Assembly: GCA_002049455.2 (NCBI GenBank)
Contig: KV919077.1
Location: 24,052 to 88,051 of the forward strand
Reading direction: 5' to 3'
DNA length: 64,000 nt
Source of the DNA: Porphyra umbilicalis
Lineage: Eukaryota; Rhodophyta; Bangiophyceae; Bangiales; Bangiaceae
A model generated the notes under the pieces. The model saw nothing but the letters and a program-made list of their open reading frames with translations, made no database searches and had not been told where the DNA came from. Position 1 is the first letter of the stretch. Each line of letters begins with the position of its first letter. The position numbers and the translations under genes are program-made. Below, one piece after another: positions 2,612 to 61,204 of this stretch.

Positions 2612-2647
2612 TATGGCCCTTCTCCCAAAAATGACCCCACCTCTGTG
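2612..2647 (+). repeat. Left TIR of the giant TA-flanked element
   Basis: The dinucleotide TA at 2612-2613 is followed by a 34-bp repeat starting TGGCCCTTCTCCCAAAAATG. The inverted partner is at 38039-38072, followed by TA, and matches at 33 of 34 positions. TA duplications are the hallmark of Tc1/mariner-type elements. The core TCCCAAAAATGA also occurs in the TIR of the short element at 55363-55994. Confidence 0.85.
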
Positions 2648-3476
2648 AGCAAACGTTTCCCACCCCCCCCCCAGGGGGCCCTGAGGCGACATGGGTTTCT
2701 GCCGGCGACAGCGTCTCCAAACGTTTCCTGACAGTGCCGCCCCATCGCGAGGTCACTTGCCAGGACGTGCCCGCGCTCTCAGGACGCGGAGGCCGCGCAA
2801 TCGTCGAATGCGACCCGGGCGGTGGCCCACCACCCTAATGGGGTCGACCGAACCCCCAAACTTGATTTCCATTGGCGGCCCCGCCGGGAATTTGAGCAAA
2901 CGTGCAGACAAACGCTTCGCACTGCAGCCAGTCCGGTCCTTCCAGATCGAATTCTATTTTGAGAAGGGGCCGTCACGAAGCAACGGGGAGGGGGTCCCGA
3001 TTCAATGCGGATTTCGGCGGCAGCGCAAGCGCCAATCTGGGGTAATCTGGGCGAACGTGCCGGCAAACGTTCCCCCAGTGCGGGTCCAGAGCCACATGCA
3101 AACAGTAACTCAAGCGTGCAAACTAGTATACACAGCGGCAATCTCGGTCGCTTGAATCGATCTGGACGTCCTAGACAGGGAAACAGACTGCAGTCTCTGT
3201 CACGCCTGGATTGTGCGGCCTGCAAGCAGCCTGCAAGCAGCGTGCGTTTTGTCGCGCCGACCAATGGCCTGCGGCCGTCATCTCAGATCTGCACGGGGCC
3301 AGTTCGTCTGGCAGCAGGGCCGTGCAAGGAGCTCACGGCGTCAGATCTGCCAACGACGCCAAGTCTTCAGCGGGACTTGGCGGCGCACAGCACTGTTGTA
3401 GGCGACGTCGTCTTCTTCCGCGGGCGCCGGCCGGCCACGAGTCCCCAGTGCCCCTCGCGCTCCTCGTGCTCCGCGG
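2648..3476. other. Left arm of the giant element, no gene seen
   Basis: It contains AAACGTTT-type octamers (2651, 2719, variants to 3070) of the kind also found at the right end. Overlapping frames on both strands carry no recognisable motif. Confidence 0.5.
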
Positions 3477-4813
3477 GTGGCGGCGGTTCGTCGGCGGCCG
3501 GTCGGTAGTGCTGGCGCTCTCGTGGCCGGCTCTGCGGCGATTGGGCGGCGGTTGCGTCGTGCTTCCACTGGCGGCGGAGGTGGGGCGGTTGGTCGTTCCC
3601 GTGAGTGGCGGAATACACTCCTGCGGCTCGTGCGGCTCGTTCGGCGGTGCGGCGGCCGGTGGCTGTCTTCGCGACTGGTGGACTGTGTACCTGGTGTGCG
3701 CGGTCGTGCTCCGCTCACCGCGTGGCCGCACGTCGTGGGCGCGCTCGTGCACCAGCGTGCGGCTGTGCGGCACGTTGTGCATGTGGTGCACGTGCTCCAG
3801 CGGGCGGGGGTGCCTCTGGGTGGTGCTCGTGCTCTTGCTCGTCGTGCCTCAGTGGGCGTCGTGTGCGTTCCCGTGCACCAGCGGACGGCGGCCCGGCACG
3901 GTGCGCAAGAGCTCCGGCGGGCGGCGGTGCCTCGGTTGGTGCTCGTGCTCTTGTTAGAGCTCTGGCGGGCGGTGGTGCGGCACGGTGTGCACGTGCTCGA
4001 GCGTCTGCGGGCGGTGGTGCCTCGGGTGGTCCTCGTGCTCTTGCTCGTGCTGCAGTCGGCGGCGGTACGGCGGCTGGTCGTTTCTGCGAGTAGTGGTTTG
4101 CGGCTCGTACGTACGGCGGTTCGGCGGCTGGTGGTCGTACCCGTGACTGGTGGACTGTGTATTGTGTACCTGGTGTGCGCGGTCGTCCTGTTACTGCGTG
4201 ACCGCAAGTCTTGTGTGTGCTCGGGTGTCGTCCCCGTGACTGGTGGACTGTGTACCTGCTGTGTGTGGTCGAGCTCCGCGCACTCTGTGACCGCACGTCG
4301 TGCAAGTGCTCGCGCTCAGGTCGCGGCAGTGCTCCAGTGGCCGCTGCGGCTCGTGCTCGTGCCCGTGCTCGTGCTCCAGCGGGGTGCGGTGCGGAAGCTG
4401 GTCGTCTCAGTGAGTAGTGGACTGCGGCTCGTGCGGCGGTGCGGCGGCTGGCTGGTGAACATTTCCGTGACCTGTGCATTGTGGACGTGGCGTGCGTGGT
4501 CGTGCCCCGTTCGCCGTGTCACCCCCGTCGTGCAAGTGCTCGAGCTCCAGCGGGCGGCGGTGATACAGTGTGCACTGCGGCTCGTGCTCGTGCTCGTGCT
4601 CCAGTGGGCGGCGGTGCGGCAGCTGGTGTTCGTGGTCCTGAAACGGGCATCCTCTGCGGTGCTCCTGGTGTGCGTTTTCGTCCCGTTGCCCTCCCCGTGT
4701 GATCGCACCCCGTTCACGTGCTCGCTCACAGAGAGCAGCGGTGCCCCGTCTGGTGCCCGTGCTACTGCTCGTCGTCGTCCCCGTGACTGGTGGACTGTGT
4801 ACCTGCTGTGCGC
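3477..4813 (+). repeat. Degenerate GTGCTCGTGCTCC-rich minisatellite
   Basis: Variants of GCGGCTCGTGCTCGTGCTCC alternate with a longer motif, GACTGGTGGACTGTGTACCTG, seen near 3671, 4146, 4235 and 4787. Frames are open in several phases on both strands, so the 545-codon frame here is not taken as a gene. Copia A interrupts the array at 4813; it resumes at 10779. Confidence 0.7.
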
Positions 4814-5186
4814 TGTGAAGTCGGTGTGGTCAAGTGGGTGCGTTATTTTACTATGGCAGAGGTCCTGGGCCGTGTCCAGCCACCTAATGTACCCCAGGCG
4901 GCCTCAGGACAGGTCGTCGGGCAGCCCGCTCTCGGAGCACACCCACGTGCCTCAGTTCTCAGTGCGCGCGGGCCGCGGCGCACCTGCCAGAACGGGGCAT
5001 GCACCTCCCCACACAAGTCCCCCCCCCCGAGCTCACCCCAGCAGAGAGTGCCCACTACGAGACCAGCAAATCAAGTACACACAAGTACAAAACATACAAC
5101 AAGTGCATAGGTAAATACCCAAAACAGGGTCCCAATGCTCAACCGGGTAAGTACAGACAAATGGAATTGCTGAGCCATGCTCAACA
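4814..5186 (-). repeat. 3' LTR of copia A
   Basis: 373 bp. On the minus strand it begins TGTTGAGC and ends TTCACA. It differs from the partner at 10405-10778 by one base in a C-run near 5020-5030 and one substitution near 5128. Confidence 0.95.
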
Positions 5187-5198
5187 CTCCCCCCAATT
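5187..5198 (-). promoter_or_regulatory. Polypurine tract of copia A
   Basis: On the minus strand AATTGGGGGGAG lies directly against the 3' LTR. Copia B has the near-identical GGAATTGGGGGAG in the same place. This is the expected primer for plus-strand synthesis. Confidence 0.85.
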
Positions 5199-5289
5199 AC
5201 ATTGTGACGGTTCCGGAGTCCGGATGCAAGGTAGCCCGGCTTCCGGCTTACAGCTTGATTTGGCTTCCCGATCGCCGCTGCTCGGGCCC

Positions 5290-5964
5290 GGGCTGTAGCA
5301 GTACAGCCCTCCTCGGGAAGCCATATCAGTTTTGGGCTGTACTGATACAGAACCCCCCCTCCCCGACTTGGCCGCAAAACGCGATGTGGGCCAAAAAACC
5401 GCCCACCGCCAAGTCGACAAGCGCCGACTCGGACAGCATCAGAGCACCCGCCAGCCGACCGCCAGGCCGCCGCAAGCCGCCCAACCGCCGCAAAGTCGAC
5501 GCAAACCGCCGACTTGGTAGAGACGCATGAAGCTGGGCTGTATCAGTACAGCCCTCCCCCCGCCACTTAAAACAAAAAAACGATGTCCGCCAAGTCCGCC
5601 TCGGTCGACGCGGACAGCATCGGAGAAGCCCTTAGCCGACCGCCCGACCGCCGCAGGCCACCCAGTCGGCGTCAAGGCGACGCAAGCTGCTGCCTTCGTA
5701 GCGATGCAAGGGCCTGGAGCTGTATCAGTACAGCCGTAACGGCTACCGCCCAGCCGAAAATCGAATTGACGCGGTCGTCCAATGTTGATCGGATCGTCCG
5801 ACGAAACGTTCGGTAGACATCGATTCGACCGGCCGCCCCCGACTCGATCGGCGAAACGTCGACTTGATCGACGAATTTCGGCACGAATCCGACTCGGGCT
5901 GTATCAGTACAGCCCGCCGACAATCGGATCCCGATTCCGAGGAGGGCTGTACTGATACAGCCCA
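5290..5964 (-). repeat. Six 20-nt hairpins in the 3' region of copia A
   Basis: GGGCTGTATCAGTACAGCCC or its reverse complement occurs at 5535-5554, 5896-5915 and 5945-5964, with variants at 5290-5309 (loop GCAG), 5334-5353 (three mismatched end bases) and 5717-5736. Each forms an 8-bp stem with a 4-nt loop. They lie between the gag-pol stop and the 3' LTR. Copia B has hairpins of the same size but different stem sequence. Function unknown. Confidence 0.9.
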
Positions 5965-6063
5965 GCCCCCGACTTCGCCGTAAACCGCCCAATCGACCCG
6001 AAGCCGTTCCGGGCCGCCGACACCGCCACTCCGCCGCCAACCGCCGCCCCCCCCCGAGGGGGT

Positions 6064-9000
6064 TCAGCACTGCGGCGCAGGACGTAGGGCCCGCGTGCCG
6101 CTACTCCCCGAAGTGCCCAGATCCGAGCCAACGCCGATGACGCCCCGGAATGTGGCGAACGCCGGGGCCGGCAGTGGCTTCGTCATGCCATCTGCGGGCA
6201 TGTCGGCGCTGGGAAGAAAGTAGAAGGCAACCTCCCCACGCGCGACGTAGTCGCGCACCATGTGGTACGCAACGTCTACGTGCTTAGTACGCCCGGTGGC
6301 TTCGGGATTGTTGACCAAAGCGAGGCACGCCTGGTTGTCCTCCCCCATGGGCACGGCGTCCCCGTCGACGCCCAGCTCCGACAGAAGTTTGCGCAGCCAC
6401 AGCGCCTCCTTGGTCGCCATAGCGGCGGCGACGTACTCGGCCTCGGCCGTTGACGTCGCCACGGTCGACTGGCGCTTGCTCGTCCACGATATCGGCCCGC
6501 CATTGAGGGTGAAGACAAAGCCCGTCGTCGACCGACGAGCGTCAATATCGCCTGCCCAGTCTGCGTCAACGTACCCTTGGAGAGGCTTGTCGTCGCCGTA
6601 CACGACCCCTAGTCGCGTAGCCCCGCGAAGATATCGGAGCACCCCCTTGGCCGCGCGCATGTGGTCCTCCTCGGGGCATGACATGTAGCGGGGGAGCACG
6701 CCCACGGCAAAGGCAATGTCCGGCCTCGTCGTCGTGGAGAGGTACAGCAACGAGCCAACAAGCTCGGCGTACCGGTTGCCCTCGGGCAGTAGATTCTCCC
6801 CCGTCTTGCAAAGCTTGGCACCTGACACCATGGGCGTCTTGTTAGGCGCAGACTTGTCCATCTGGAAAGCCTCAAGCAGGGAACTGACATGCCCCGGATT
6901 GCTCAGGGTGATCACCTTGGCAGCCCGATCTCGCATGACCTTCATGCCAATGAAGTCCTTGACCTCACCCATGTCGCGCACGTCGAAAGACGCCGACACC
7001 GAGGCCTTGACCATCTGGACCCCTTCGAGGCTTTTTCCAGCCACAATGAGATCGTCCACGTAGACGAGGATGTAGACAAGCCCGTGCACAGGGTGGCTCC
7101 ACGTGTAGAGGCACGGGTCCACCATGGACCGGACCGCTCCGATGGCATTGAGCTCTTTGTTAAGCTTGATGCCCCACAATCGTCCCGCCTGTTTGGTCCC
7201 ATAGAGAGCCAGGTTCAGACGGCGGACATCACCTTCCTCCCCCGGCTCGGCTCCGACCGGAAGCTTGATGTACATCTCCTTGTCCATCTTTGCGTTGAGG
7301 AAGGCCGTCTTCACATCCACGTGGTGAACTTCCCAGTCCTTGGCCGCCGCCACCGCGAAGAGCGCGCGTGTCGTGGCCGAGCTCGGCACTGGTGCCCATG
7401 TCTCATCAAAGTCGCGCCCCGGCACTTGGTTGAAGCCCTGCGCCACCAGTCGCGCCTTGTACCGAGTCATGTTGCCCTCAGCATCGTGCTTGATGTCGTA
7501 CACGTACCGCGTTTTGACAGCCTTACGCTTGTTGCTGCTCCTGGTATTGGACCAGGTACCAAGCTTCTTGTGTGCGAGGTACTCTTCTTTCTCAGCCGCC
7601 TTCCAACGCGGCCAGTCCGATCGCGCACGCGCCTCCTTCGCATTGGCTGGCGCCTTGGTCAGGTCCCATCCCGACGGATCTCCGCCCTTGGGTCCTTCTG
7701 CAGCGTATGCCTTTGGGTTACGCTCCCACCAGGTAACCTTGGGTGCCGGCTTGCGCTTCGACCGCCGGAGTGCTTGCACCCCGTCGTCACCACTCTCTGT
7801 GGTGGATCCAGACAGCACGTCGTGTCCATCATGATCCGCCGCGTCCTCGCCGGCGTCATTGTCATCTCCGTCTTCTGCGTCGAGTCCGGAAGCCTCGTCC
7901 GGATCAACGTCGCTCTCTGACGACTGCTGCGAGGCATACTCGTCCCCGCTTGCGGCTTCCGCTTCCAGCATGTCCATGGCGCCGTCCTCCTTGTCACCAT
8001 CCGTCTGACTGGTCAGGAAAGGGGTGGAAGCAGGGCCAGGGACAGAGGTCATCTTGATGGCTTTGCTTGAGGTCTCCTCCATGAGCACATCTCGGCGCTC
8101 AAAGACCTTGTTTGAGCCATCCTCTAGGATGCGGTAGGCCTTGCCACCAACAGTGTAGCCGACAAATCGGCCGACATCGGTCCTGGGTTCCAGCTTTCGC
8201 TGCTGCTGCTTGGGCTTCAGAGCCCATGCCCGGCTCCCTCAGACCCGAAATCCCTTCACGTCGGGGCGTCTGCCCGTGAGGGCTTCCAGCGGGGTCACAT
8301 CTTGACCCGCCTTGGGGGATCGGTTGAGCACGTGGATGACGGATGACAAAGCCTCCGCCCACAGCTCCTCTTCCGCTCCGGCGTCCAGAAGAGCCGCACG
8401 GACGCGCTCCATGATGTACCGGTTGGCGCGCTCTGCCTTCCCGTTCTGCTGCGAAGAGTACGGCGCCGTCTTCTCAGACGTAATGCCTTTGTCTTCATAC
8501 CAGGCTTGGAGGTCGCGGCTCACGTACTCCTTGGCGCCATCGTGACGAACCCGCTTCACCTTAAGCCCAGTTAGGGTCTCTAGCTGCTTGATGCGGGCCT
8601 TGAGGACATCCGGAACCATGCCCTTGGACTTGATGGGCGTCGCCGTGATGAACCCAGTGGAGTCTTCCATCAGAGTCACGAAGTAGACAGAGCCGCCCAG
8701 CGACGCCGTCAACGGCCCATCAACGTCCGTGTGAACCAACTCGCACTTGGTGGTGGTCGTTGTCGAGCGATGATGCGGAGAACGCGCCATCTTTCCGTCG
8801 ACACAAGGCACGCATACCGTACCAGGAACGCGCTTGGCGTCGGCTACCGTCGATGGAATCCCATCGACCATCCCAACCACACGCTTGAGGTTCTCGAAAC
8901 CCAAGTGGTTGAACCGGCGGTGCCACAGCTCTGCCTCGCCGTCCATGTGCGTGGAGGCGGCTCTGGCCGACGCCGTGACCGGAGTCACCTTGAGCACGTA

Positions 9001-10248
9001 GTTCTCCGACTCGTTGACCGAGCCGACGACAGACGCGTTGCTCAAAACTCCGCTCACGAGCACCGCTTCCCCATTACTGAGGATATAGCAGGCGTCGCCA
9101 ACGAACACCACGGCACCACCACAGCGGTCGACCGCTCGGACCGACAGAAGGTTGTCTGTCAGATCCGGCACAAGCATGACCTCATCGAGGACCATGCGAG
9201 CCGTGGTGATTCCCTTCCCCACGTCCATGGACGCGTATCCGTGCCCCTTGATGGGCACCTTGTGGCCGTCAGCTAGAGTGACCTTGGCCCCGCTCCCCGT
9301 CGTCTTGACGGTGAAACCCGCGTCCTGGGCGGCCATATGGTTGGTCGCACCCGAGTCCAACACCCAGGTCGAGGACCCGCTGGTGCTCCCGGAAGCGTTG
9401 AGCTTCCCGGCCTGGCCTGCCGACGCAGCGTAGGCCAATGCGGCGCGGGGAGGTGCACCACCTCCACCACCACCCTCACGACGCCCGAGATTTGGCTTCT
9501 TGTTGCCCTTGGCGTCGTCGGCCTTCTTCTTGAGACAGTCGCGCTTCATGTGCCCCTTCTTGTCAAAGTAGTAGCACACGACCGCGCGCTTGTCCCACGG
9601 CTTCTTAGAAGCCGTTGCCGCAAACGCTTGCGACTTGACGCCGGTCGCCGAGGACGACCGCCCATGGCTCCCCCGCTGCTCCACAGTGAGCAGCTTGGCG
9701 CTCACGTCAGCGAGGTTGCGCTTCCCGTCCATGTTCTCCAGAACGGTCTTGATCATGTCATACTCGGCCGGAAGGCCCGACAGGATCTGCAGGACAAGCG
9801 TGTTCTCGTCCACCTGATTTCTCAGCATGGAGAGCTCTTGACGGATGCCCTTGGCGCGCGACGTGTACTTGATGATGTTCTCGTCGCTGCCCTTCTTGAG
9901 GTTGCTCAGCTCATGCATGAGCTGCAGCAGGCGTGCGTTGTCCCGCGCCTCAAAGATGTCCTTGAGCGCATCCCACGCCTCCTTGGCCGTACTGACCGCC
10001 GTCACCGAATAAAGATGAACCGGCTTGACCGACATCTGGATAGTCGCCAGGGCCGACTCGTTCATGAGGTCCCACGCCTCAGCTGCAACGTCGCTCTTGG
10101 CACCGCTCCCAGACGCGGGGCGGTCCGTCACAACCGCAGCCCAAACCTTCTCCTTGATCATCTGTGCACGGCAGTACACAGCCCAGACCTTGTAGTCGTC
10201 GTCCAGCTGCGCGAAGCGAGGGCCAGCGTAGCGGCCGTACTCCGACAT
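6064..10248 (-). pseudogene. Copia A gag-pol polyprotein with one premature stop
   Basis: A single frame of 1395 codons encodes Gag, a zinc knuckle (CYYFDKKGHMKRDC), an aspartic protease (WVLDSGATNHMA), the GAG-pre-integrase and DDE integrase regions (VHTDVDGP, RHDGAKEY, QNGKAERANR), reverse transcriptase (LVYVDDLIV) and RNase H (VDADWAGD, TAEAEYVA, TKHVDVAYH). The start ATG at 10248 (MSEYGRYAG) matches copia B. Codon 670, at 8241-8239, is TGA where copia B has TGG in the same context (GFRVWGSRAW), just after the integrase core. The rest of the frame is open. A functional product would need readthrough; simple mutation is more likely. Confidence 0.93.
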
Positions 10249-10390
10249 GACGATGACAACCACGCCAGCAGGCGCGGCACTGACGACGTGGGAGGCTATA
10301 CCCACCTGCCCGACGCCGGAACACACGGCAACCCAACCAAGGTCGTCCCGCCAACAACGGCACGGAAGACGACGATGACCACCAGCGACA

Positions 10391-10404
10391 CTGGGCCCAT
10401 AACC
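10391..10404 (-). promoter_or_regulatory. Primer-binding site of copia A (initiator tRNA half)
   Basis: On the minus strand GGTTATGGGCCCAG follows the 5' LTR directly. It is complementary to the anticodon arm of eukaryotic initiator tRNA-Met (CTGGGCCCATAACC), not to the tRNA 3' end. Drosophila copia is known to use such an internally cleaved tRNA half. Copia B has the same site. Confidence 0.85.
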
Positions 10405-10778
10405 TGTGAAGTCGGTGTGGTCAAGTGGGTGCGTTATTTTACTATGGCAGAGGTCCTGGGCCGTGTCCAGCCACCTAATGTACCCCAGGCGGCCTCAGGA
10501 CAGGTCGTCGGGCAGCCCGCTCTCGGAGCACACCCACGTGCCTCAGTTCTCAGTGCGCGCGGGCCGCGGCGCACCTGCCAGAACGGGGCATGCACCTCCC
10601 CACACAAGTCCCCCCCCCCCGAGCTCACCCCAGCAGAGAGTGCCCACTACGAGACCAGCAAATCAAGTACACACAAGTACAAAACATACAACAAGTGCAT
10701 AGGTAAATACCCAAAACTGGGTCCCAATGCTCAACCGGGTAAGTACAGACAAATGGAATTGCTGAGCCATGCTCAACA
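10405..10778 (-). repeat. 5' LTR of copia A
   Basis: 374 bp, near-identical to 4814-5186. On the minus strand it starts TGTTGAGC and ends TTCACA, directly before the primer-binding site. Confidence 0.95.
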
Positions 10779-11394
10779 GGCGCGGCTCGTGCTCGCGCCC
10801 GTGCTCGTGCTCCAGCGCGTGCCTTCCAACCGGGTGGTGCTCGTCCTCGTGCTCCCGTGCACCATTGTGTCGCAGTGGTGGGGGTACTCCTGCTCTCCGC
10901 ACCGCAGGCCACACTTGGTGCCTGTGGCCGTGACCTGCGGGCGACGGTGCCCCTGCCGATCTTGCCCCAGTCCGCGGCGCGGGGTGCCTGGTCTGGACGC
11001 TTTCCTGGGTTCTTGGGGTGTGGTTCACCGTCTGTTGCCCAGGCTCGTGCTCCCGCGGGCGACGGCGCCCGGCCGGCACTTGTCTTGCGGGCGACGGCGC
11101 CCGGCGGCACTTGTTTTGCGGGCGACGGCGCCCGGCCGGCAGTAGTACTCGCGTTCCTGTCGAAGTAGGGCTGCAGCTGGTGTTCGTGTGTGTGCCCGCT
11201 GCGGTTGGCGGCCCTCGTCTTCGTTCCTCGGGCTTCCTTCAAGGCCAAGGGCGCGGTTGTTCGGCGAATCGCGGCGGCGTCGTGACACGGGGCGGCGGTC
11301 CTTCGTGGCCGCCGTCGCTGGGCGTTGTGTGGTGTTCCTTCGCGGCCGCGGTCGCTGGGCGTGGTGCGGTGGTCTGTGCGGACTTGCAGGGATG
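10779..11394 (+). repeat. Continuation of the split minisatellite and spacer
   Basis: GCGGCTCGTGCTCGCGCCCGTGCTC at its start continues the array broken at 4813. GC-rich imperfect repeats of GGCGACGGCGCCCGGC follow near 11055-11140. The stretch leads into the DDE transposase region without a recognisable gene. Confidence 0.55.
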
Positions 11395-11505
11395 CCATGT
11401 TTCCAGCTAACGTGCGTCTCTGCGCAATCAGCATGGTTGCCCACGGTGTGCCGCGCAAGGTCGTTCAGAGGATCGTTGGTGTAAAAACAATCCGCTCTCA
11501 AGAGG

Positions 11506-14326: not shown

Positions 14327-14565
14327 CGTTGAGCAGGAGCAGCCGACTGGCTGCACCCTGGTGCCTCACGTCGAGTCAACCCTGCCGCAGCGCGTGGAGG
14401 AGCAGCCGCCGACGAGCAGCACACTCCCGCTCGTCGACGTCGCAGGAGCGAGCAGGACCAGCCGACTGGCTGCACCCTGGTGCCTCACGTCGAGTCAACC
14501 CTGCCGCAGCACGTGGAGGAGCAGCCGCCGACGAGAAGCACATTCCCGCTCGTAGACGTCGAGCA
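14327..14565 (+). repeat. 119-bp tandem duplication
   Basis: Two copies in tandem; AGCCGACTGGCTGCACCCTG starts at 14341 and at 14460. Only a few substitutions separate them. No convincing gene overlaps. Confidence 0.85.
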
Positions 14566-22932: not shown

Positions 22933-23334
22933 CTTTGTCATGTGCGGCTTTGACTGGTGCACCGACGTGCCGCCCGTCGCCGCTGGCTGGCATTTCGGCT
23001 GTCTTTGTTCTCTACTACAGTGCCATATGTTCCTGTTGAGGCCGCTGCGAGTGGTGCTGTCGAACGAGATGGCCTTCTGGACGACCTGTACGTTGGACTG
23101 TAGGCCGCTCTACTGCCCTCCGAGGATGCGGGAGCGGCGGATGCCTGGGGACGTTCCGCATCTCTGCCACTGCAACGGCACGCTGGCCGCTGCAAGAGCG
23201 CATCTTGCCGCCAATGCTGTACTAACATCCCCGGTCCGTCGCGCTTGTTGTATTGTGGCCTGTTGTTTTGTGACCGCCTGCCCATTTGTGCTGTGCAACT
23301 GCATGCTGCCGACAGCAGTTCTTTGGCGCTGAAC
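22933..23334 (+). other. Possible exon region between two frames
   Basis: A frame at 22823-23332 is Cys-rich (FVMCGFDWCTD; WHFGCLCSLLQC; VPHLCHCNGTL) and might belong to a spliced gene joining 21490 with 23335. I cannot fix splice sites. Confidence 0.25.
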
Positions 23335-28600: not shown

Positions 28601-29225
28601 CTTCGCTGCTGCTGCTGCCCCTCCTGCCGTGTCCTCCGCCGTTGTCAATCCCGCCGTCGTCGCTGCACCAGCTGTATTCGCTGCTCCCGTCGTCGAAGCC
28701 ACCGTCCTCGTCGCTCCTGCCGGGCGTCCCGCCGCCCGCCCCTCCAGCGGAGCCAGCGTGCACAATACCAACGCCAACACCATCCCCGGCGCTGCGGCCT
28801 ACACAACCGCTGCTACTGGCACCTACTCCCAAACCAACTCCACCGGCTCCACGTCCCCAGCCGCCGCCGATGTCCCCGCTCGCTCCGAGACGGATGACGG
28901 CACCAAGCGCTTCCACAGGTGGCAGTTCAACGCCACAGGTTCCAATTAAGGTCGAGGCCACATGCCGTTGCCGGTTCACAGCGGCTCGGTTGGCCACCAC
29001 TGCAACATGCACAGCAGCACTCCGCCGCTGTTTCGCATCTTCCATTGCTCTGTGGAATACACGAGTGACTGTGGGTAGCAGCTGCGAGCCCTCCCCCATA
29101 CACTCGCCAGCGTCGTCGCCAGCGTCGTCCCCCGAGTCCCCCGAGGAGCTGGCCGCCGCGAACCACTCCCGGACAAAGTCATCTTCAAGCCCCACCATCC
29201 CCCGCGCCCGCCTCGGGGGCGTCAT
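25666..29225 (-). CDS. E(z)-type histone H3 lysine methyltransferase (PRC2 catalytic subunit)
   Basis: Exons 29225-27153 and 26994-25666 join across a 158-nt GT-AG intron (GTGAGCG...GTGTGCAG) into 1133 residues. The domain order is that of Enhancer of zeste: an acidic/Gly-rich N-terminus with VRFVPYLGD, the LLCRLCLRYACRAHG zinc motif near 650, a SANT-like stretch (SQWTAEEVALLRAAAELV, about 725-770), the CXC domain (PCVDDRCSC to ECDPDACLSCGAHW, about 833-937) and a SET domain (about 1007-1126). The family trimethylates H3K27 within PRC2. Odd points: NHSAASPNLE in place of NHSxxPNC, GEELFFHYGY where the family has FFDYRY, and roughly 45 extra residues between the CXC halves. Upstream exons are possible. 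It lies inside the TA-flanked element. Confidence 0.85.
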
Positions 29226-29652
29226 GACCGGCAGAACCACAGAAATAGCATCACGAGCACGCGAGGACGCAAAGGTAACGGCGGCCGCACCAGGTCCCAC
29301 CCACCTACCAGCCCCTGCTGCGCCACAGCCACACCTGCGACGTTATAGCCGCGACGGAAACACACACAAACACAGCGACGGCTGACGGTGCGGAAGCACC
29401 GCCAAGAATCTGCGTGATCCTCGGAAAAGCCGGTCCTTGCACGGCCAAGATCAGATCCTGATCGGGCCCTTTGAGAAAAACATAAAATTAAAAATCGGGA
29501 GCGCATTCCCGATTTTTGCAGCTGCAACTGTTTCTGCACAACCAGGTCACCGCCGCGGTCTATTTTCATGCGCTCGCGGGACAGAAAGAGGGGAGACACC
29601 AAGTCGCACAATGTGTATGGAACAGCTCATGGTATCGCGGGGTGCACTGCTG
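29226..29652. other. Intergenic
   Basis: A short AT-rich inverted pair, AAATCGGGAGCG...CGATTTTT-like, lies near 29490-29517. It may be a terminator-like hairpin of the gene on its right. No gene seen. Confidence 0.4.
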
Positions 29653-31295
29653 CTAAAAGTCGTCCCCCTCCCCATCATCTTCTTCACCGTCGTCATCCTC
29701 TCCGTCGCTGTCGCTCACGACCACCCTCCGCGCCGCCGCATGACCCGCACCTCTGCCCATAGAGTGGCGCTCCGCGACAGCGCCACCCCCCGCACCACGC
29801 CCCGCCCCCCGCCTTGAATCACCTCCCGACCCACGACCTGCACCACGATCCGTGTCGCAGCCGCCTAAGCGCTCCAGCTGCGCTATGTTCGACTGCTCAT
29901 CGTCGACGTCCTCCTCCCACGGACCGGTGCCCTCTACAGCTGCTGACCCAGCAGCGGCGGCGGCAGAGATGCGGCGCTGGTCCCGTACAAAGGTCTCCAT
30001 CCACTGGGCCAGCATCACCAGGAGAATCGAGTTGTCAACATTGACGCGTGTGGAGCACAGGCGCTCGGCGAACTCTGCCGCCAACACTGCACCGCAGGTT
30101 ATCGACGCTCCAAAGAGGAAGTTCCCCTCTGCCGCGGAAATCAACTGCGACTCCAGCTCCGGGTAGAGCGCTTGCGGACCGCTACCAACACCCTGCTCCA
30201 GGGCAACTAGGGCGAGCTCCCGCGCCGAGAGCTGGCTTACGTACGCGCTCTCAAACACATGGTGAGCCAGGAACTGATCCCGACGCCCGGGAGGCCACAT
30301 GAGATGCTTCGCAGGCGCAGATGCCGTTCCTGGAACACCGCCGGCCGCCGCGGGGCCTGCTCCACCGCCACGACCCGGGCTGCCGGTCCAACGCGTCGAC
30401 CCCGAACCGGACGTAGTCATCTCCATGAGAGACTGCGCGTGCCGGTCCGCTTCAGCTGCACTCCGCGTCTGCTGTTGTCGCATGAGGTCCACCACAGACG
30501 GGAAGACGTTTTCTCCACCTGCGGAGCCGCCACCACGAGAGGAGGACGACCCGGCTGTAGCTGCACCACGCGCGGATCCCCGGCCACCGCGGCCGCGGCC
30601 TCGGCCGCGCCCACGCGCGTTGGTACCACCACGACCAGTGGCGCCGGGTGATGAGCCCCCACCAACGGCGGAGGGGGCAGCTCCAGCGACACCAGCAATG
30701 GCGGCGGCGACAGCTGAAGCGGCTGAAGCGGCACCCGCGGCAGCGGCAGCTGCGGTCGCCCCGAGCACATGCGCCGCCCCGTCCGTTGAGCTCGAGCCAC
30801 CGCGCCCGCCCCGACGACCACGAACGGCCCGACCAGCAGGTGGCGCTGTGCCACGCCGAATGGTTCCACCAGAAACCAGCGAGGAGGGCGGCATACCACC
30901 CGGAGCGGCTGCGGCTGCGGCGCCGTCGGCACGACCGACACCCACAGCGCCACCAGCCGCAGCGCGACCGGCGGCGGCCGCCGCCAGAGCCCCGCCGGCG
31001 GCGACAGCGGCACGCCCAAGGGTTCCACCTGCAGCGAGCAGCGACGCTTCGACCGCAGTGTTCGAGCGGTTCTGCAACGCCGTCGACGCCCGGTCGAATT
31101 GGCCGCGGTTGGCAGGTGCCAATGATGCAGCAGCCGTGCCGCTCGCCTCCATGAGGTTGGCTGTAGCAGATGACGACACGTGTAGCCCGGACTGGTAGAG
31201 CTTTCCGGCAATGGCGGCCGCGGTGCCGGCCAGCCGGTTCTTCTCCGCGTGGTGCCGATAGGCCTTGCCAACGACGTCAGCCTTGAGTTCTGCAG

Positions 31296-31717
31296 TGTTG
31301 AGCTCTGCTCGGGAATTCCATGGGAGCTATACTTACACGCGGGCTCTTGGTGACTCAAGCTCGTGTACTTGTTGGCATTCCATTGTTGTATGACTTGTAC
31401 TTGTTTGTACTTGATTTGTGTATCTCTTGGTGAGCCCCCCCTTTCTTGTGGTGAGCTCGGGGAGATTGTGCGTGGCGTGGTGACTGGATTGTGCGGCGGT
31501 GGGCGGCTTAGCACAGGGGAGGCGCATGCTCCGCTTTGGGAGGTGCGCCGCAGGCCCTGCACGCGCGGAGAGTGGAACTGCCTGGCGAAGCACTGAGAGG
31601 GGGGTCTTCCCTGCGACTGGCAGAGGGGTCGCCTGGGGTATATCAGGCGGTCCTAGTGGGCCCAAGACCGCCATCCAAGTAAACCAACGCACCCACCTAC
31701 CTACCTCCCGCTTCACA
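31296..31717 (+). repeat. 5' LTR of copia B
   Basis: 422 bp, TGTTGAGC...TTCACA. It differs from the 3' LTR at two positions (near 31380 and 31587). Confidence 0.97.
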
Positions 31718-31732
31718 GGTTATGGGCCCAGC
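31718..31732 (+). promoter_or_regulatory. Primer-binding site of copia B (initiator tRNA half)
   Basis: GGTTATGGGCCCAGC directly follows the 5' LTR. All 15 bases are complementary to the anticodon arm of animal-type initiator tRNA-Met (GCTGGGCCCATAACC), the arrangement known for Drosophila copia. Confidence 0.88.
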
Positions 31733-31874
31733 TGTCGCTGGTGGTCATCGTCGTCTTCCCTGCGGTCGCTGGTCGGACGACGTTGCTCGGGTTGCGGTGT
31801 GTTCCGGCGTCGCGCGGGCCGATACCGCCGTCGACGTCGTCAGTGCGGTGCTTGGTTGCGCCGCTGTCGTCAAC

Positions 31875-34800
31875 ATGTCGGACTACGGCCGCCTTAGCGG
31901 CCCACGGTTCGCGCAGCTGGACGACGATTACAAGGTGTGGGCGGCGTACCAGCGTGCGCAGCTCAAAAAAGAGAAGCTGTGGACGGCCGTCGTGACGGAC
32001 CGCCCTGCTTCTGGTTCGGACGACAAGAAGTCCGACCCGGTGGTCGAAGCGTGGGACGCCATGAACGAGGCGGCGCTGGCGACCATCCAGATGTCGGTCA
32101 AGCCCGTGCATCTCAACACGGTCACGTCGGTTGACACGGCCAAGGAGGCGTGGGAAGCGCTCAAGGTCATGTTCGAGGCACGTGACAACGCGCAGCTGCT
32201 GCGGCTCATGGACGAGCTGAGCAGCCTGAAGAAGGGCGACGACGAAAACATCATCAAGTTTGCGTCGCGCGCCAAGATGATCCGGGACGAGCTTGCCATG
32301 CTCGGAAACCCGGTGGACGACAACACGCTCGCACTGCGTGTCTTGTCGGGGCTTCCGTCAGAGTACGGGATGCTCAGGACGGTCTTGGAGAACAAGGACA
32401 CCAAGCTCGTCATGTCGGACGTGACGGCTAAGCTGCTGCAAGTGGAGCAGCGGAGCATTACCGTCGCCGCGTCGAAGCCTTCTGGCAGTGTCAAGTCACA
32501 AGCCTTTGCTGCAGCGGCGCACAAGAAGTCGTTTGACAAGAAGTCGGTCGTGTGCTTCTACTGCAACAAGAAAGGGCACATGCAGCGCGACTGCTACAAG
32601 AAGAAGGCGGATGAGGCCAAGGGCAAGGGCAAGCCCGGCGGTGGTGGTCGTGAAGGCGGCCAAGGCGGCGGGCCCCACGCGGGTGCCGCTCTGGCCTACA
32701 CTGCTTGCACCGGCAATGCCGGGAGCAGCAAGGCTCACGGGAGCACACGCGGGTTGTCAACCTGGGTGCTCGACTCTGGCGCAACCAACCACATGGCCGC
32801 CGGGGATAAGGGCTTCACCGTCCGGACGGCGGGAAGCGGGGCCGAGGTCACCTTGGCCAACGGCGATAAGGTGCCCATCAAGGGGCACGGCCACGTCTCC
32901 ATGGACGTTGGCAAAGGAAACACCAAGACGCGTATGGTGCTCGGGGAGGCTATGCTCGTTCCGGACCTGACTAGCAACCTGCTGTCGGTTCGAGCAGTCG
33001 ACCGCAATCGAGGTGCGGTGGTGTTTGTCGACAACGCCTGCTACATTCTTAGCGACGGGGATGCTGTACGCTTGAGCGGGGTGCTCGACAAGGCGTCGGT
33101 GGTCGGCAAGGTGAACGACCTGGAGCATTATGTGCTCAAGGTGACGCCGGTCCGGGCGTCGGCTAACGCGGCATCCACGCGCATAGCCGGGGAGGCGGAG
33201 CTGTGGCACCGTCGGTTCAACCACTTGGGGTTAGAGAACCTCAAGCGGGCGGCCACATTGGTCGACGGCATGCCGTCGTCAGTGGCAGACGCCAAGCGCG
33301 TCATTGGCACTGTGTGTGTGCCGTGTGTGGACGGCAAGATGGTTCAGGCGCCGAGCCCCCGCTCATCTACAGCGACGACCAAGTGCGAGCTGGTGCACAC
33401 CGACATTGGTGGCCCACTCACGGAGTCGCTGGGTGGTTCCATCTACTTTATGACGGCGCTGGAGGACTCCACGGGGTTCATCACGGCAACGCCTATCAAG
33501 ACGAAAGGGATGGCACCGCAGGTTCTCAAGACGCCTATCAAGCAGCTTGAGACGCTGACGGGAGTCAAGGTCAAGCGCGTCCGTCATGACGGTGCCAAGG
33601 AGTACGTCACCAACGACCTCAAGGCGTGGTACGAGGACAAGGGCATCACGTCGGAGATGACGGCGCCGTACAAGTCACAGCAGAACGGCAAAGCGGAGCG
33701 GGTGAACCGCACGCTGATGGAGCGCGTGCGTGCTGCTCTGCTCGATGCCGGAGCGGAGGAAGAGCTGTGGGCTGAGGCGTTGGCCTCCGTCGTCCATGTG
33801 CTCAACCGGTCCCCCAAAGCGGGGCTGGACGTGACACCGCTGGAGGCTCTAACGGGTCGACGCCCCAACGTCGCGGGATTCCGCGTTTGGGGGAGTCGGG
33901 CGTGGGCGCTCAAGCCCAAGAAGCAGCAACGCAAGCTGGAGCCAAGGACCGACGTCGGCCGCTTTGTCGGCTACACGGTCGGTGGCAAGGCCTACCGCAT
34001 CCTCGAGGACGAGACGAACCAAGTCTTTGTGCGTCGAGACGTGCTGATGGAGGAGAACCCGGCTAAGGTCGAGGCGTCGGCAGTCGGGTCAAGCGCTGGT
34101 CCCCGGCTGACTGCGGACTATGACGGCGACAAGGAGGACGCCACGGAAGGGGCAATGGACATGCTCGACGCTGAGCGCGGGCGAGAGGACGAGTATGCCC
34201 CCGACGACACCTCCGACAGCGATGACGAAGGCAGTGCTCCCTCCCTTTCTGAAGATAGCGAGGAGGAAGACGAGGACGGCCCCGACGGCTCGATACCGGC
34301 GGTCGGTCAAGGACCTGCTACCTGTGACAGCGCCGCACCTGAGCCTCGTCGCTCGAAACGAAAGCCAGCTCCCAAGGTAACATGGTGGGAGAAGGAACCC
34401 AAGGCGTACCTGGCAAGCGGTACCAAGTCCTCGGCTGAAGCGGGTTGCGACCTGCACAAGCCCCCTGTGAACGAGAAGGAGGCGCGTGCTCGTCCTGATT
34501 GGCCGCGGTGGAAGCAGGCCATCAAGGAAGAAGTGGCAGCACACAAGAAGCTTGGCACCTGGTCCAAGATTAAGGTGAACAACAAGAAGCAAAAGGCCAT
34601 CAAGACGCGATTCGTGTTCGACATCAAGCACGACGCGGAGGGCAAGATGACGCGCTACAAGGCCCGACTCGTGGCCCAAGGCTTCAACCAAGTGCCGGGG
34701 CGGGACTTTGACGAGACGTGGGCGCCGGTGCCCAGCGCGGCTACCACACGGGCCCTCTTTGCCGTGGCTGCAGCCTCGGGCTGGGAGCTTCACCATGTTG

Positions 34801-36053
34801 ACGTCAAGACTGCCTTCCTCAACGCCAAGATGGACAAGGAGATGTACATCAAACTCCCCGACGGTATCGAGCCGGAGGGCGTGGAGGAGATGTGTCGGCT
34901 TAACCTGGCGCTCTACGGGACAAAGCAGGCTGGGCGGCTGTGGGGCATCAAGCTCGACAAGGAGCTCAAGGAGATCGGTGCAGTGCGGTCCAAGGTGGAC
35001 CCGTGCCTCTACGAGTGGTGCCACCCTGTTCACGGGCGCGTCTTCATTCTCGTGTACGTCGACGACCTTATCGTGGCGGGCGAGAAGCTGGCTGGGGTTG
35101 CGGCCGTCAAGCGCTCCGTGTCGGCGAAGTTTGAGGTACGCGACATGGGGGAGGTCAACGACTTCATCGGCATGAAGGTCATACGTGACCGTGCGGCGAA
35201 GACGCTGACCCTGAGCAACCCGGGGCACCCCGTGACGCTGCTGGAGGCGTTTGGGATGGAGAATTCCACCCCTAACAAGGCGCCGATGGCGTCAGGGGTC
35301 AAGCTGACCAAGACGGGGGAGGACCTGCTGCCGGAGGGCAACCGGTACGCCGAGTTGGTCGGCTCCCTCCTCTACCTGTCTACCACGACGAGGCCAGACA
35401 TCGCCTTTGCCGTGGGGGTGCTGTCGCGCTACATGTCCTGCCCTGAGGAGGACCACATGCGCGCGGCCAAGGGGGTTTTGCGCTACCTGCGCGGGACGAC
35501 TCGCCTTGGGGTGGTCTACGGCGGCAGCGAGCCGCTGCAGGGGTTTGTCGACGCCGACTGGGCGGGCGACGTTGACGGCCGTCGGTCGACGACAGGCTTT
35601 GTCTTCACCCTCAGTGGCGAGCCCATCGCGTGGGCAAGCAAGCGCCAGTCGACTGTGGCAACCTCGACGGCCGAAGCAGAGTACGTGGCCGCCGCGATGG
35701 CAACCAAGGAGGCGCTGTGGCTACGCAAGCTGCTGTCGGCTCTGGGCGTTGATGGCGGGGCCGTACCGATGGGGGAAGACAACCAGGCTTGCCTCGCCTT
35801 GGTCAACAACCCCGAAGCCACCGGGCGTACCAAGCACGTGGCCGTCGCGTACCACATGGTCCGTGACTACGTGGCGCGCGGAGAGGTGACGTTCTACTTC
35901 CTCCCTAGCGTGGACATGCCGGCAGATGGGCTGACGAAGCCGCTGCCGGCCCCGGCGTTCATCTTGTTTCGGCGCCTCATTGGCGTTGGTGCCGATCTGG
36001 GCAACGCGGGGCTTGGCGCTACGCCGGCCCCACGTCCTGCTTCCACATGCTGA
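31875..36053 (+). CDS. Copia B gag-pol polyprotein
   Basis: 1392 residues in one frame from MSDYGRLSG; the frame is open upstream to 31722, but the ATG at 31875 matches copia A. The order is Gag (about 1-210), zinc knuckle CFYCNKKGHMQRDC (227-240), protease WVLDSGA (Asp300), integrase with HTDIGGP (Asp510), RHDGAKEY and QNGKAERVNR, reverse transcriptase with YVDD (1061-1064), and RNase H with VDADWAGD (Asp1226), TAEAEYVA and EDNQACLALV. Integrase before reverse transcriptase defines Ty1/copia. In the last RNase H motif residue 1323 is Ala (TKHVAVAYH) where copia A and most relatives have Asp, so RNase H may be impaired. Gag and Pol are not separated by a frameshift. Confidence 0.96.
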   Translation: MSDYGRLSGPRFAQLDDDYKVWAAYQRAQLKKEKLWTAVVTDRPASGSDDKKSDPVVEAWDAMNEAALATIQMSVKPVHLNTVTSVDTAKEAWEALKVMFEARDNAQLLRLMDELSSLKKGDDENIIKFASRAKMIRDELAMLGNPVDDNTLALRVLSGLPSEYGMLRTVLENKDTKLVMSDVTAKLLQVEQRSITVAASKPSGSVKSQAFAAAAHKKSFDKKSVVCFYCNKKGHMQRDCYKKKADEAKGKGKPGGGGREGGQGGGPHAGAALAYTACTGNAGSSKAHGSTRGLSTWVLDSGATNHMAAGDKGFTVRTAGSGAEVTLANGDKVPIKGHGHVSMDVGKGNTKTRMVLGEAMLVPDLTSNLLSVRAVDRNRGAVVFVDNACYILSDGDAVRLSGVLDKASVVGKVNDLEHYVLKVTPVRASANAASTRIAGEAELWHRRFNHLGLENLKRAATLVDGMPSSVADAKRVIGTVCVPCVDGKMVQAPSPRSSTATTKCELVHTDIGGPLTESLGGSIYFMTALEDSTGFITATPIKTKGMAPQVLKTPIKQLETLTGVKVKRVRHDGAKEYVTNDLKAWYEDKGITSEMTAPYKSQQNGKAERVNRTLMERVRAALLDAGAEEELWAEALASVVHVLNRSPKAGLDVTPLEALTGRRPNVAGFRVWGSRAWALKPKKQQRKLEPRTDVGRFVGYTVGGKAYRILEDETNQVFVRRDVLMEENPAKVEASAVGSSAGPRLTADYDGDKEDATEGAMDMLDAERGREDEYAPDDTSDSDDEGSAPSLSEDSEEEDEDGPDGSIPAVGQGPATCDSAAPEPRRSKRKPAPKVTWWEKEPKAYLASGTKSSAEAGCDLHKPPVNEKEARARPDWPRWKQAIKEEVAAHKKLGTWSKIKVNNKKQKAIKTRFVFDIKHDAEGKMTRYKARLVAQGFNQVPGRDFDETWAPVPSAATTRALFAVAAASGWELHHVDVKTAFLNAKMDKEMYIKLPDGIEPEGVEEMCRLNLALYGTKQAGRLWGIKLDKELKEIGAVRSKVDPCLYEWCHPVHGRVFILVYVDDLIVAGEKLAGVAAVKRSVSAKFEVRDMGEVNDFIGMKVIRDRAAKTLTLSNPGHPVTLLEAFGMENSTPNKAPMASGVKLTKTGEDLLPEGNRYAELVGSLLYLSTTTRPDIAFAVGVLSRYMSCPEEDHMRAAKGVLRYLRGTTRLGVVYGGSEPLQGFVDADWAGDVDGRRSTTGFVFTLSGEPIAWASKRQSTVATSTAEAEYVAAAMATKEALWLRKLLSALGVDGGAVPMGEDNQACLALVNNPEATGRTKHVAVAYHMVRDYVARGEVTFYFLPSVDMPADGLTKPLPAPAFILFRRLIGVGADLGNAGLGATPAPRPASTC

Positions 36054-36138
36054 GCCCCTCCATGGTCGGCGGAGGTCTGTGGCGGAGCTACACAGGCGAC
36101 AGGCCGCGTGCCCTTTGCGTTTGGCATCGGCTTTGCGG

Positions 36139-36492
36139 CGCTTTGGGCCGGTTGTGGTGGCCGGACGGTCGGCTGGGGTATGTCATGTTGCTGTGCGAGT
36201 CGGCGGTGGTTGACTGAGCCCCTTTTGTGTTTTGCACTAACGGCGATTTTTTTCTAGTGGACGGTATCGTTACCGTCCCGAAGAAAAATCGCGCGGATTG
36301 CTTGGGGCGGTTTGGGTCGGTTGTGGTGGCCGGACGGTCGGCTGGGGTATGTCATGTTGCTGTGCGAGTCGGCGGTGGTCGACTGAGGCCCTTTTGTGTT
36401 TTGCACTAACGGCGATTTTTTCTTGTGGACGGTAACGATACCGTCCCGAAGAAAAATCGCGCAGAGTGGTTGGGACGGTATCGATACCGTCC
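36139..36492 (+). repeat. 169-bp tandem duplication and three 20-nt hairpins in the 3' region of copia B
   Basis: GTTGTGGTGG recurs at 36151 and 36320, and the surrounding unit is repeated almost exactly. Hairpins are at 36259-36278 (GGACGGTATCGTTACCGTCC), 36427-36446 (its reverse complement) and 36473-36492 (GGACGGTATCGATACCGTCC, a perfect palindrome). The first two are enclosed by GCGATTTTT and AAAAATCGC, which extends the stem. Confidence 0.9.
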
Positions 36493-36520
36493 GTTCCGGT
36501 GGACTTACATTAACTCCAAT

Positions 36521-36533
36521 GGAATTGGGGGAG
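36521..36533 (+). promoter_or_regulatory. Polypurine tract of copia B
   Basis: GGAATTGGGGGAG abuts the 3' LTR at 36534. Confidence 0.88.
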
Positions 36534-36955
36534 TGTTGAGCTCTGCTCGGGAATTCCATGGGAGCTATACTTACACGCGGGCTCTTGGTGACTCAAGCTC
36601 GTGTACTTGTTGGCAATCCATTGTTGTATGACTTGTACTTGTTTGTACTTGATTTGTGTATCTCTTGGTGAGCCCCCCCTTTCTTGTGGTGAGCTCGGGG
36701 AGATTGTGCGTGGCGTGGTGACTGGATTGTGCGGCGGTGGGCGGCTTAGCACAGGGGAGGCGCATGCTCCGCTTTGGGAGGTGCGCCGCAGGCCCTGCAC
36801 GCGCGGAGAGTGGAACTGCCTGGGGAAGCACTGAGAGGGGGGTCTTCCCTGCGACTGGCAGAGGGGTCGCCTGGGGTATATCAGGCGGTCCTAGTGGGCC
36901 CAAGACCGCCATCCAAGTAAACCAACGCACCCACCTACCTACCTCCCGCTTCACA
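36534..36955 (+). repeat. 3' LTR of copia B
   Basis: 422 bp, followed by the TGCAG duplication at 36956. Confidence 0.97.
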
Positions 36956-37312
36956 TGCAGTGTGGTGGTCATCCAGCGTCCTGCACATGTACTCCGACGC
37001 ACGCTCCACGAAACCCGCCTCCTTGACGCGGATGGGGTCTCCTGCGTTGTTTCGGGCGTACAGCCCGTCAGTAATACGCAGCGTGTGCGGCAGATGTCCA
37101 ACAGCTCGGCACCTGGGACACGTCAGCTCGTGTACGCAACCCTTGTCCAGGCACGACACGGGGCCCCCCGGTTTGAAGAACTTGCTAGTCGGCGACAGCT
37201 GGTACATGCACGGCATGGAGCGCATTGTGCACGTGCGCTGCGAGTGGTTGCCCTTGATGTTGTTGCCGTCAGCGTCTTTCCCGAGGTCAAACCCACACAA
37301 CAGGCAAACCAT

Positions 37313-38038
37313 GACAGGAGCAAGGAGCAACAGAAGACTCCGTCGTCCCGTCCTAAAACATGCGACGCCAGCCAGCCAGTAGAGTCACAGCCGCTCACGG
37401 GCGCCGGTGGGGGAGCGCGACCGCAGTCGCCCGCCACCGCCGGTCAAAGTCGAATGCCGACCGGTACGGCCACAGCCTCAGACCGCCGCCGGTGGTGGAG
37501 GAGCACGACCACGGCCACCCGCCGCTGCCGGCGGAGCGCCGCCGCAGGCGCAAAGCCGGTGGAACAGCAAAGGGAGTCGTCGCGCCACCGCCGGGGGAAA
37601 AGGAAGCCCGCCGTTGGAACAGCGTGGCTTGACGCACTCGCCGCGCGTCGTGGAGCGACTGGACAGCCACGAGCGCCGGCCACCTTGAGCAAAAAGACAC
37701 GCCACAACGGGAGCCTGCCGGGCGGCACGGCGGGAGGGGGAGGAGGGGAGCGCGAGAGAGGCGCGGGGACCACGGTCCAGCGGGACAGCAGCGACGACGA
37801 CGACGACACACATCGGACACGATCTCCTGCCACTGGCCTCCAACACGGCGTCCTGCCGTAGATTGCGGACCTGTGGCAGAGGAGGCGCTTCCGTGCATGG
37901 CTGCGGGCAGTATGAGTCAATCGCGCGACAAGGTCGCTGGGGCTCGAGTTTTCTATCGGGGCACAGAACCTCCGCCTCCTATTGGCCCCTCCCTGCCTTA
38001 CAGAACGTTTCCAAACGTTTGTCCCCCTCCACAGCCTG
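37313..38038. other. Right arm of the giant element, no gene fixed
   Basis: Probably the 5' side of the Cys/His gene. Frames on both strands are Arg/Pro-rich without motifs. AACGTTT octamers near 38003-38020 mirror the left end. Confidence 0.45.
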
Positions 38039-38074
38039 CACAGAGGTGGGGTCATTTTTGGGAGAAGTGCCATA
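38039..38074 (-). repeat. Right TIR of the giant TA-flanked element
   Basis: Inverted copy of 2614-2647 (33/34), followed by TA at 38073-38074. Confidence 0.85.

Positions 38075-60267: not shown

Positions 60268-60311
<44 letters not shown>

Positions 60312-60815: not shown

Positions 60816-60880
<65 letters not shown>

Positions 60881-61169: not shown

Positions 61170-61204
<35 letters not shown>

Follow-up and report, generated by a model that had tools for sequence, protein, structure and literature searches.

The element in the window and its ends

A stretch of 64,000 nucleotides of Porphyra umbilicalis DNA (GenBank assembly GCA_002049455.2, contig KV919077.1, positions 24,052 to 88,051 of the forward strand; hereafter the window) was analysed; at positions 2612–38074 it holds a unit that an earlier note, made from the letters of the window, had described as a giant Tc1/mariner-type element with cargo genes. 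Terminal inverted repeats (TIRs), TA target, transposase, paired copies in the genome and empty sites agree with that description, and the unit is very probably one copy of a large family of giant (about 17–44 kb) Tc1/mariner (IS630-Tc1-mariner) cut-and-paste DNA transposons that carry genes of Polycomb repressive complex 2 (PRC2) as cargo. Several cargo genes are present, as the note had it; their Polycomb nature, the family of relatives and the share of Copia sequence had gone unseen. The genome searched was the 83.8-Mb assembly of 665 contigs (labels C1, C2, etc.), the window lying within contig C317. Features in window coordinates (TIR1 denotes the TIR type of the window copy; LTR, long terminal repeat; ORF, open reading frame; aa, amino acids):

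2612–38074, no strand: whole giant element including the TA on each side; 35,463 bp in length, of which about 23.8 kb remain once both Copia inserts are subtracted
2612–2647, plus: left TIR, TATGGCCCTTCTCCCAAAAATGACCCCACCTCTGTG; left end common to five TIR1 copies with differing flanks
2651–2726, no strand: subterminal AAACGTTT motifs at 2651 and 2719, which may be transposase sites
4813–10778, minus: nested Copia LTR retrotransposon 1; LTRs 4813–5186 and 10404–10778, 99.5% identical; absent in C261
11485–12438, plus: Tc1/mariner-type transposase, 317-aa part, a frameshift having displaced the N-terminal part; in C261 the frame is open over 383 aa
17683–19656, plus: ORF with C2H2 (zf-met) fingers; finger region matched 62 times in the genome
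19900–20907, plus: tandem array of a 116-bp unit in 8.7 copies, flanked by the zinc-finger and SUZ12 genes
21319–24015, plus: SUZ12-like gene; N part 21319–22932, VEFS box about 23494–23870; frame interrupted between 22932 and 23104
25666–29342, minus: E(z)-like histone methyltransferase gene; frames 25666–27342 and 26607–29342; single 1225-aa frame in C261
about 25693–26010 and about 26254–26352, minus: SET and CXC domains of E(z), by profile matches
29653–31326, minus: ORF-R; conserved domain of about 115 aa (29965–30333); in 13 of 14 long TIR pairs
31294–36955, plus: nested Copia LTR retrotransposon 2; LTRs 31294–31717 and 36532–36955, 99.5% identical; 5-bp duplication TGCAG
38013–38020, no strand: subterminal AAACGTTT motif of the right end, from a motif search of the window
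38039–38074, minus: right TIR, from comparison of the ends of TIR1 copies

Ends: positions 2612–2647 and the reverse complement of 38039–38074 are identical at 35 of 36 positions, both start with TA, and divergence is immediate beyond them; the inverted ends with TA on both sides that had been reported are thereby confirmed. TA stands on both sides in four of the five TIR1 copies and on the left side in the fifth. The 29-bp TIR core gave 16 genome occurrences at ≤3 mismatches (reversed-pattern control, 0). Exact AAACGTTT was found three times in the window (0.42 expected), twice at the left end and once at the right, and degenerate variants are discernible by eye near both; the motif is thus at both ends as claimed, "arrays" being too strong a word for this number of exact copies.

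Empty sites: 70 b of left flank, a single TA and 70 b of right flank were joined for each of the five copies and searched in the genome; 40 of 1290 candidates were scored. For the join 2611/38075, where the earlier note had advised looking for empty TA sites, 33 uninterrupted places span the junction at full or near-full length (136–142 b, 85–96%, equal length of query and target). The C261 join gave one junction-spanning match (90% over 108 of 142 b). For C135, C193 and C2 their own flanks stood alone among the matches listed, which means little because of the fraction of candidates scored.

Copies of the first TIR type: five convergent TIR1 pairs share unequal left and right subterminal sequence, their outer flanks being unrelated; sizes are 23.7 kb (C261), 35.5 kb (C317, window), 30.9 kb (C135), 16.8 kb (C193) and 28.1 kb (C2). 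The C261 copy is 98.9–99.6% identical to the window copy across four main blocks, a fifth, which covers the tandem array, being at 96.1%; the gaps of the alignment (4813–10780 and 31298–36956) are the two Copia inserts, both absent from C261. Copia sequence makes up about 11.6 of the window copy's 35.5 kb, and the Copia-free C261 copy, at 23.7 kb, bears out the core of about 24 kb given in the earlier note. Main-block identity to the window copy is about 96–98% for C135, 95–97% for C193 and 91–95% for C2, with deletions and insertions present. The window copy is defective, with one frameshift-size indel relative to C261 in the transposase and another in E(z). A single inverted-repeat element with 4.3-kb arms was considered and rejected; the inverted arms at 6.06–10.39 and 31.73–36.06 kb are two separate young Copia insertions and arise because these lie in opposite orientation. 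Overlapping alignments place the 116-bp tandem array in C261 and C2 as well. The C135 copy (C135:57605–57676) sits 3 bp from the TIR of another element (TATGGCACTTCGCCCAAAAATGGACC), a placement that suggests insertion next to or into relatives.

Transposase: a Pfam DDE_3 match lies within 11485–12438 (plus strand), and the predicted model of a metagenomic relative (P0001, 90% identical) shows the Mos1/Sleeping Beauty fold, which upholds the Tc1-type DDE transposase seen earlier; the transposase domain of SETMAR/Metnase turned up in the same fold comparison. D156, D255 and E289 are invariant across 36 aligned rows; the spacing of second D to E is 33 residues, one below distant relatives such as P0064, 34 being usual in Tc1/mariner. 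The N-terminus is helical in the P0001 model, and PF13384 is precomputed for relatives such as P0009. Closest relatives are metagenome proteins; the nearest named one is a Pyropia yezoensis protein (50% over 86%), followed by a fungus at 32%. The modelled fold, D,D,E triad, TA target duplication and TIRs are all those of Tc1/mariner. Assignment to PIF/Harbinger (HarbingerS) fails: that group has a DDE_Tnp_4/Plant_tran transposase and a 3-bp TWA target, but such a transposase lies solely outside the element, split at about 1931/41613, and the element has DDE_3 and TA.

Polycomb cargo and the family in the genome

E(z) and SUZ12: the E(z)-like product matched PF18264 (CXC, 1e-7) and PF00856 (SET, 3.4e-16), with EZH2 as best match in the PDB; with CXC followed by SET, the cargo methyltransferase is, on its sequence, of the E(z) type, a PRC2 subunit. 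Of 17 aligned C-termini of element E(z), nearly all retain the NH motif and GEELFF.YGY, C61 being broken there. The VEFS box of the SUZ12-like gene matched PF09733 (2.2e-8); upstream of it Zn_SUZ12 was weak (0.0064; 16.7 bits vs a cut-off of 28). The element thus carries two PRC2 subunits, E(z) and often SUZ12, separate from the probable host E(z) and SUZ12. The latter are probably the genes on C76 and C478, respectively, which have no listed transposase on the contig; the C76 gene bears a Gly/Ala-rich insert inside its SET domain, unlike the aligned element E(z)s. A second lone VEFS locus (C6:429693–430049) has neither E(z) nor transposase matches on its contig; since its upstream part matches element SUZ12 at 43–54%, the locus may be not a host gene but a remnant.

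Paired ends: degenerate TIR patterns gave 77 and 111 matches (controls, 0), 100 of the 111 being listed and the other 11 unused; the 121 places listed were scanned for convergent neighbours at distances below 60 kb, wider pairs being left out. Fourteen long pairs (16.8–43.8 kb) and 13 short ones (3.2–7.1 kb) were obtained, with one divergent pair. Transposase, E(z) and ORF-R lie together inside 13 of the 14 long pairs, which fall into three TIR subfamilies, and SUZ12 inside 10 of these 13 (in C2, the N part only). The search for paired ends proposed in the earlier note thus yielded 14 loci with ends 17–44 kb apart, 13 of them bearing these genes; the ends were not confined to short miniature inverted-repeat transposable elements (MITEs), though the 13 short pairs exist. 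In the window the genes point inward from each half, as had been noted (transposase, zinc-finger gene and SUZ12 on the plus strand at left, E(z) and ORF-R on the minus strand at right); this layout is not universal, since order and orientation of the genes other than ORF-R vary among subfamilies.

TIR types: the second type shows a sharp left boundary in C498, C458 and C116, with unrelated flanks and then TATGGCAGATCCCTAAAAAATGGG; in C482, C5 and C313, a first try at second-subfamily ends, no boundary was found within 3 kb. The third set, TATGGCACTTCCCCCAAAAATGGACACACCGC, was found with the degenerate patterns. The short pairs (C22, C263, C33, C3, C12, C44, C46, C42, C354, C56, C96, C103 and C95) have ends like the third type and recognised genes in none of the 13; they look like non-autonomous derivatives. 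On C228 three second-type left TIRs (99193, 99807 and 100421), 614 bp apart, precede one giant element, a tandemly repeated end. A convergent pair 32 kb apart on C13 (247903–280136) holds none of the five genes and represents either other cargo or two unrelated short elements.

Linkage of the genes: window queries gave 96 genome matches for E(z), 78 for CXC, 26 for VEFS, 95 for the ORF-R domain and 62 for the zinc-finger region; for the transposase, 125 of 373 candidates were scored. The E(z) matches, less 19 pieces of the same locus and plus six CXC-only loci, amount to 83 loci including the probable host gene on C76, i.e., about 80 besides it. Linkage (expected numbers assume random placement and ignore clustering of repeats): E(z) within 15 kb of a scored transposase, 55 of 83 (about 3.7 expected); E(z) within 15 kb of ORF-R, 62 of 83 (2.8); VEFS within 25 kb of E(z), 24 of 26 (1.3); zinc-finger region within 20 kb of E(z), 42 of 62 (2.5), or, counting transposase matches also, 56 of 62. 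Sorted by transposase identity class, E(z) lies within 20 kb of 57 of 83 transposases at 52–67%, four of seven of the window's own class and one of 35 at 38–52%; the association of transposase and E(z) is clade-specific.

ORF-R: the gene points inward in all 13 long pairs and stands 2.0–3.2 kb from one end in 11 of them; the distance is 7.0 kb in C2 and 7.7 kb in the window, 5.7 kb of the latter being Copia. The structure model, built from three sequences, has a pLDDT of 41, and relatives outside the genome were two metagenomic proteins among 7995 candidates scored. Near five of the 35 low-identity transposases a convergent ORF-R match (weak, E 3e-5 to 8e-3) lies 2.1–5.1 kb away, about 0.8 being expected within 10 kb; no E(z) or zinc-finger match is listed on the contigs of these five. 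This compact class, a lead and not a proof, may be the founder of the giant elements; a two-gene element of transposase and ORF-R would later have gained the zinc-finger gene, E(z) and SUZ12.

Selection on E(z), proposed role and insertion site

Ratios of nonsynonymous to synonymous substitution (dN/dS) were compared on E(z) C-termini (450 codons, seven loci). Among 20 between-subfamily pairs, 11 gave dN/dS of 0.15–0.24 at 44–76% amino-acid identity, and the codon comparison supports purifying selection as having maintained E(z) during diversification of the elements; from this selection it follows that E(z) probably serves the element. Within subfamilies most copies are decaying, as their dN/dS is near the non-coding level and stops or frameshifts occur. 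Such a pattern is that of genes under selection while the elements propagate and in decay thereafter. A tree of the CXC–SET region separates 18 element rows, made up of a metagenomic protein and 17 loci, from the C76 gene and from E(z) of a green alga (support 87/95).

Several results weigh against the account of a Tc1/mariner family with maintained PRC2 cargo, in addition to the simplified linkage expectations given above. Selection: the remaining nine of the 20 between-subfamily pairs were saturated at synonymous sites and not computable, C115/C50 alone having dS below 1 (dS 0.63, dN/dS 0.21); within subfamilies dN/dS is mostly 0.3–0.9, near-identical pairs exceeding 1 from very few changes; E(z) of TIR1 copies gave 0.41–2.4, vs 0.73–1.20 when non-coding sequence was treated as codons, and stops or frameshifts interrupt many of these copies. 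Tree: the outgroup consisted of one host and one green-alga sequence, and the depth is unsure because both outside branches are long. Gene content: the SUZ12 match is missing in three of the 13 gene-bearing long pairs and the zinc-finger query matched just six of 13; WD40 (EED/ESC, p55) is absent from the Pfam matches in six frames of the core, which means that assembly of PRC2 must rely on host subunits. Transposase: the helix-turn-helix matches of the C261 protein (HTH_28, 0.0061; HTH_23, 0.022) are both below the curated cut-off, and no sequence match was obtained in the PDB.

Proposed role: element E(z) and SUZ12 would join EED- and p55-type subunits of the host to give a PRC2 specified by the element. 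Guided to element DNA, perhaps by the C2H2 protein or ORF-R, this complex would methylate histone H3 lysine 27 (H3K27) on element chromatin. Copies so marked would be quiet yet recoverable, which would limit damage, and would be spared permanent silencing by H3K9 and DNA methylation; the mark could also direct insertion into silent repeat DNA. Self-marking for dormancy seems the likeliest role, anti-silencing or choice of insertion site being close rivals. A tentative proposal, given somewhat less than even chances, is that a transposon superfamily has appropriated Polycomb's catalytic half: its members would specify a PRC2 of their own, directed by a DNA-binding protein that they also encode, and would control their dormancy themselves, H3K27 methylation being the switch. 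If it were true, the host would run its own PRC2 beside tens of selfish ones, and a histone mark long seen as anti-transposon defence would partly be written by transposons.

An element PRC2 could instead act against silencing, as a decoy that competes for EED/p55 or by exchanging permanent heterochromatin for removable H3K27 marks, the element staying mobile in either case. This alternative, considered rather unlikely, draws on transposons that encode regulators of their own silencing (Vandal in plants, TET/JBP in fungal transposons; available text of PMC12730594) and on the marking of transposons by H3K27me3 in a diatom, a ciliate and a red alga (available text of PMC8788455); the catalytic core kept in nearly all of the aligned element E(z)s (see above) would fit an active enzyme better than a pure decoy. 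It is improbable that E(z) and SUZ12 are passive passengers, i.e., host genes caught between TIRs by chance and not serving the element: gene capture by DNA transposons is common according to the available text of PMC6431247, within-subfamily dN/dS is near neutral in many pairs and between-subfamily dS mostly saturated, but E(z) recurs in 13 of 14 long pairs of three TIR subfamilies, a passenger would decay whereas E(z) has diverged down to 44–76% identity yet shows low dN/dS where computable, and in the tree the C76 gene falls outside the group of element E(z)s.

An endogenous virus or a Polinton/Maverick-like element would likewise match the size, the inverted ends and the presence of multiple genes; this was rejected on the Pfam content of the core and on IMG/VR searches, and is regarded as very improbable. 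Polymerase B, capsid, protease and packaging ATPase are absent from the Pfam matches in six frames of the core, rve occurs solely inside the two Copias, the TIRs are of about 36 bp with a TA target, and IMG/VR held no E(z) relative in a search reaching close relatives only, its transposase matches being distant and partial. That two solitary short elements (MITEs) bracket ordinary host genes by chance is scarcely credible: short TIR pairs do exist, but five copies of one unit lie at differing loci, 13 of 14 long pairs have a common gene set, and this candidate was rejected since empty sites exist for the whole 35-kb block.

The window copy lies in another repeat, which resumes after it:

1927–2611, no strand: 4.2-kb target element, left part; inverted ends GAGCATTCCCACC..., TAA flank; host repeat of the giant insertion
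38075–41636, no strand: 4.2-kb target element, right part; same repeat

The 4.2-kb repeat has inverted ends GAGCATTCCCACC... with TAA/TTA flanks and lies inside a broken Harbinger-type transposase gene; the nested picture with a 4.2-kb Harbinger-type layer drawn in the earlier note was recovered. The Harbinger-type (Plant_tran/DDE_Tnp_4) gene (1803–1931 and 41613–42122) is split by the 4.2-kb element (ends near 1927 and 41636), which makes four nested layers counting the Copias (Harbinger-type gene, 4.2-kb element, giant element, Copias). The insertion of the window copy in a repeat and the C135 copy 3 bp from an element end would fit a preference for silent repeats, but are two cases only. 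Positions 59500–63600 of the window are very G+C-rich (83% at 60–62 kb), where short imperfect repeats abound and either strand has long frames; they are probably low-complexity sequence.

Comparison with known systems

The element resembles Mos1, Sleeping Beauty and Tc1 in TA target, short TIRs, a D,D,E transposase of that fold as judged from the P0001 model, and precise empty sites; it differs in a core of about 24 kb with five or more genes vs one gene in a few kb, and the window clade departs from the usual Tc1/mariner spacing in its 33 residues from second D to E. The size thus breaks the usual range of natural Tc1/mariner elements, with a possible path, within one genome, from compact two-gene element to giant cargo element.

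Starships, Teratorn and Polintons are giant eukaryotic elements whose integrases are a tyrosine recombinase, piggyBac and rve, respectively. Like them, the present elements reach tens of kb and bear cargo; unlike them, the core outside the Copias has no Pfam match to such an integrase, a Starship tyrosine-recombinase captain being without Pfam match in six frames of the core. SETMAR/Metnase is a SET domain fused to a mariner transposase; it shares the link of SET with mariner and differs as a domesticated host fusion gene that is not mobile. The vSET of Paramecium bursaria chlorella virus 1 is a minimal viral SET protein, an H3K27 methyltransferase without CXC or SUZ12 partner; in both cases a mobile genetic element holds a methyltransferase that is, here by sequence, of the H3K27 type, CXC and SUZ12 being present in the element described.

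With dozens of transposons bearing and conserving E(z), in many cases together with SUZ12, it becomes possible to test directly by whom, and to what end, H3K27me3 is written on mobile DNA; a mobile element seems to have adopted machinery for chromatin silencing into its own equipment. A PRC2 census that failed to recognise the roughly 80 additional E(z) loci of this alga as transposon genes would be misled; the available text of a PRC2 review that covers red algae (PMC8788455) proposes repression of transposons as an ancestral role. Searches of the open-licence PubMed Central literature (subscription papers, Repbase Reports and most preprints lying outside this scope) turned up neither a transposon with E(z)/SUZ12 nor a Tc1/mariner element of giant size, and the words Tc1 and mariner are missing from the main text of a giant-transposon review (PMC6431247).

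The enlarged CACTA elements of Chondrus crispus (16–20 kb; PMC6431247) are likewise oversized multi-ORF DNA transposons of a red alga; they belong to the En/Spm superfamily, and Polycomb genes are not mentioned in the available part of that text. Fungal TET/JBP dioxygenase transposons (PMC12730594, available text) share a transposon-borne enzyme that edits epigenetic marks; those enzymes act on 5-methylcytosine, unlike the H3K27 target type here. The closest precedent is found in HarbingerS and MuDR of Phytophthora, which encode SET histone methyltransferases (Kojima and Jurka 2014, via the available text of PMC12730594) and are thus, like the present elements, DNA transposons with their own SET-type histone methyltransferase; they differ in transposase superfamily, and whereas no SUZ12 partner is mentioned in that text, the methyltransferase here is of the E(z) type and accompanied by SUZ12.

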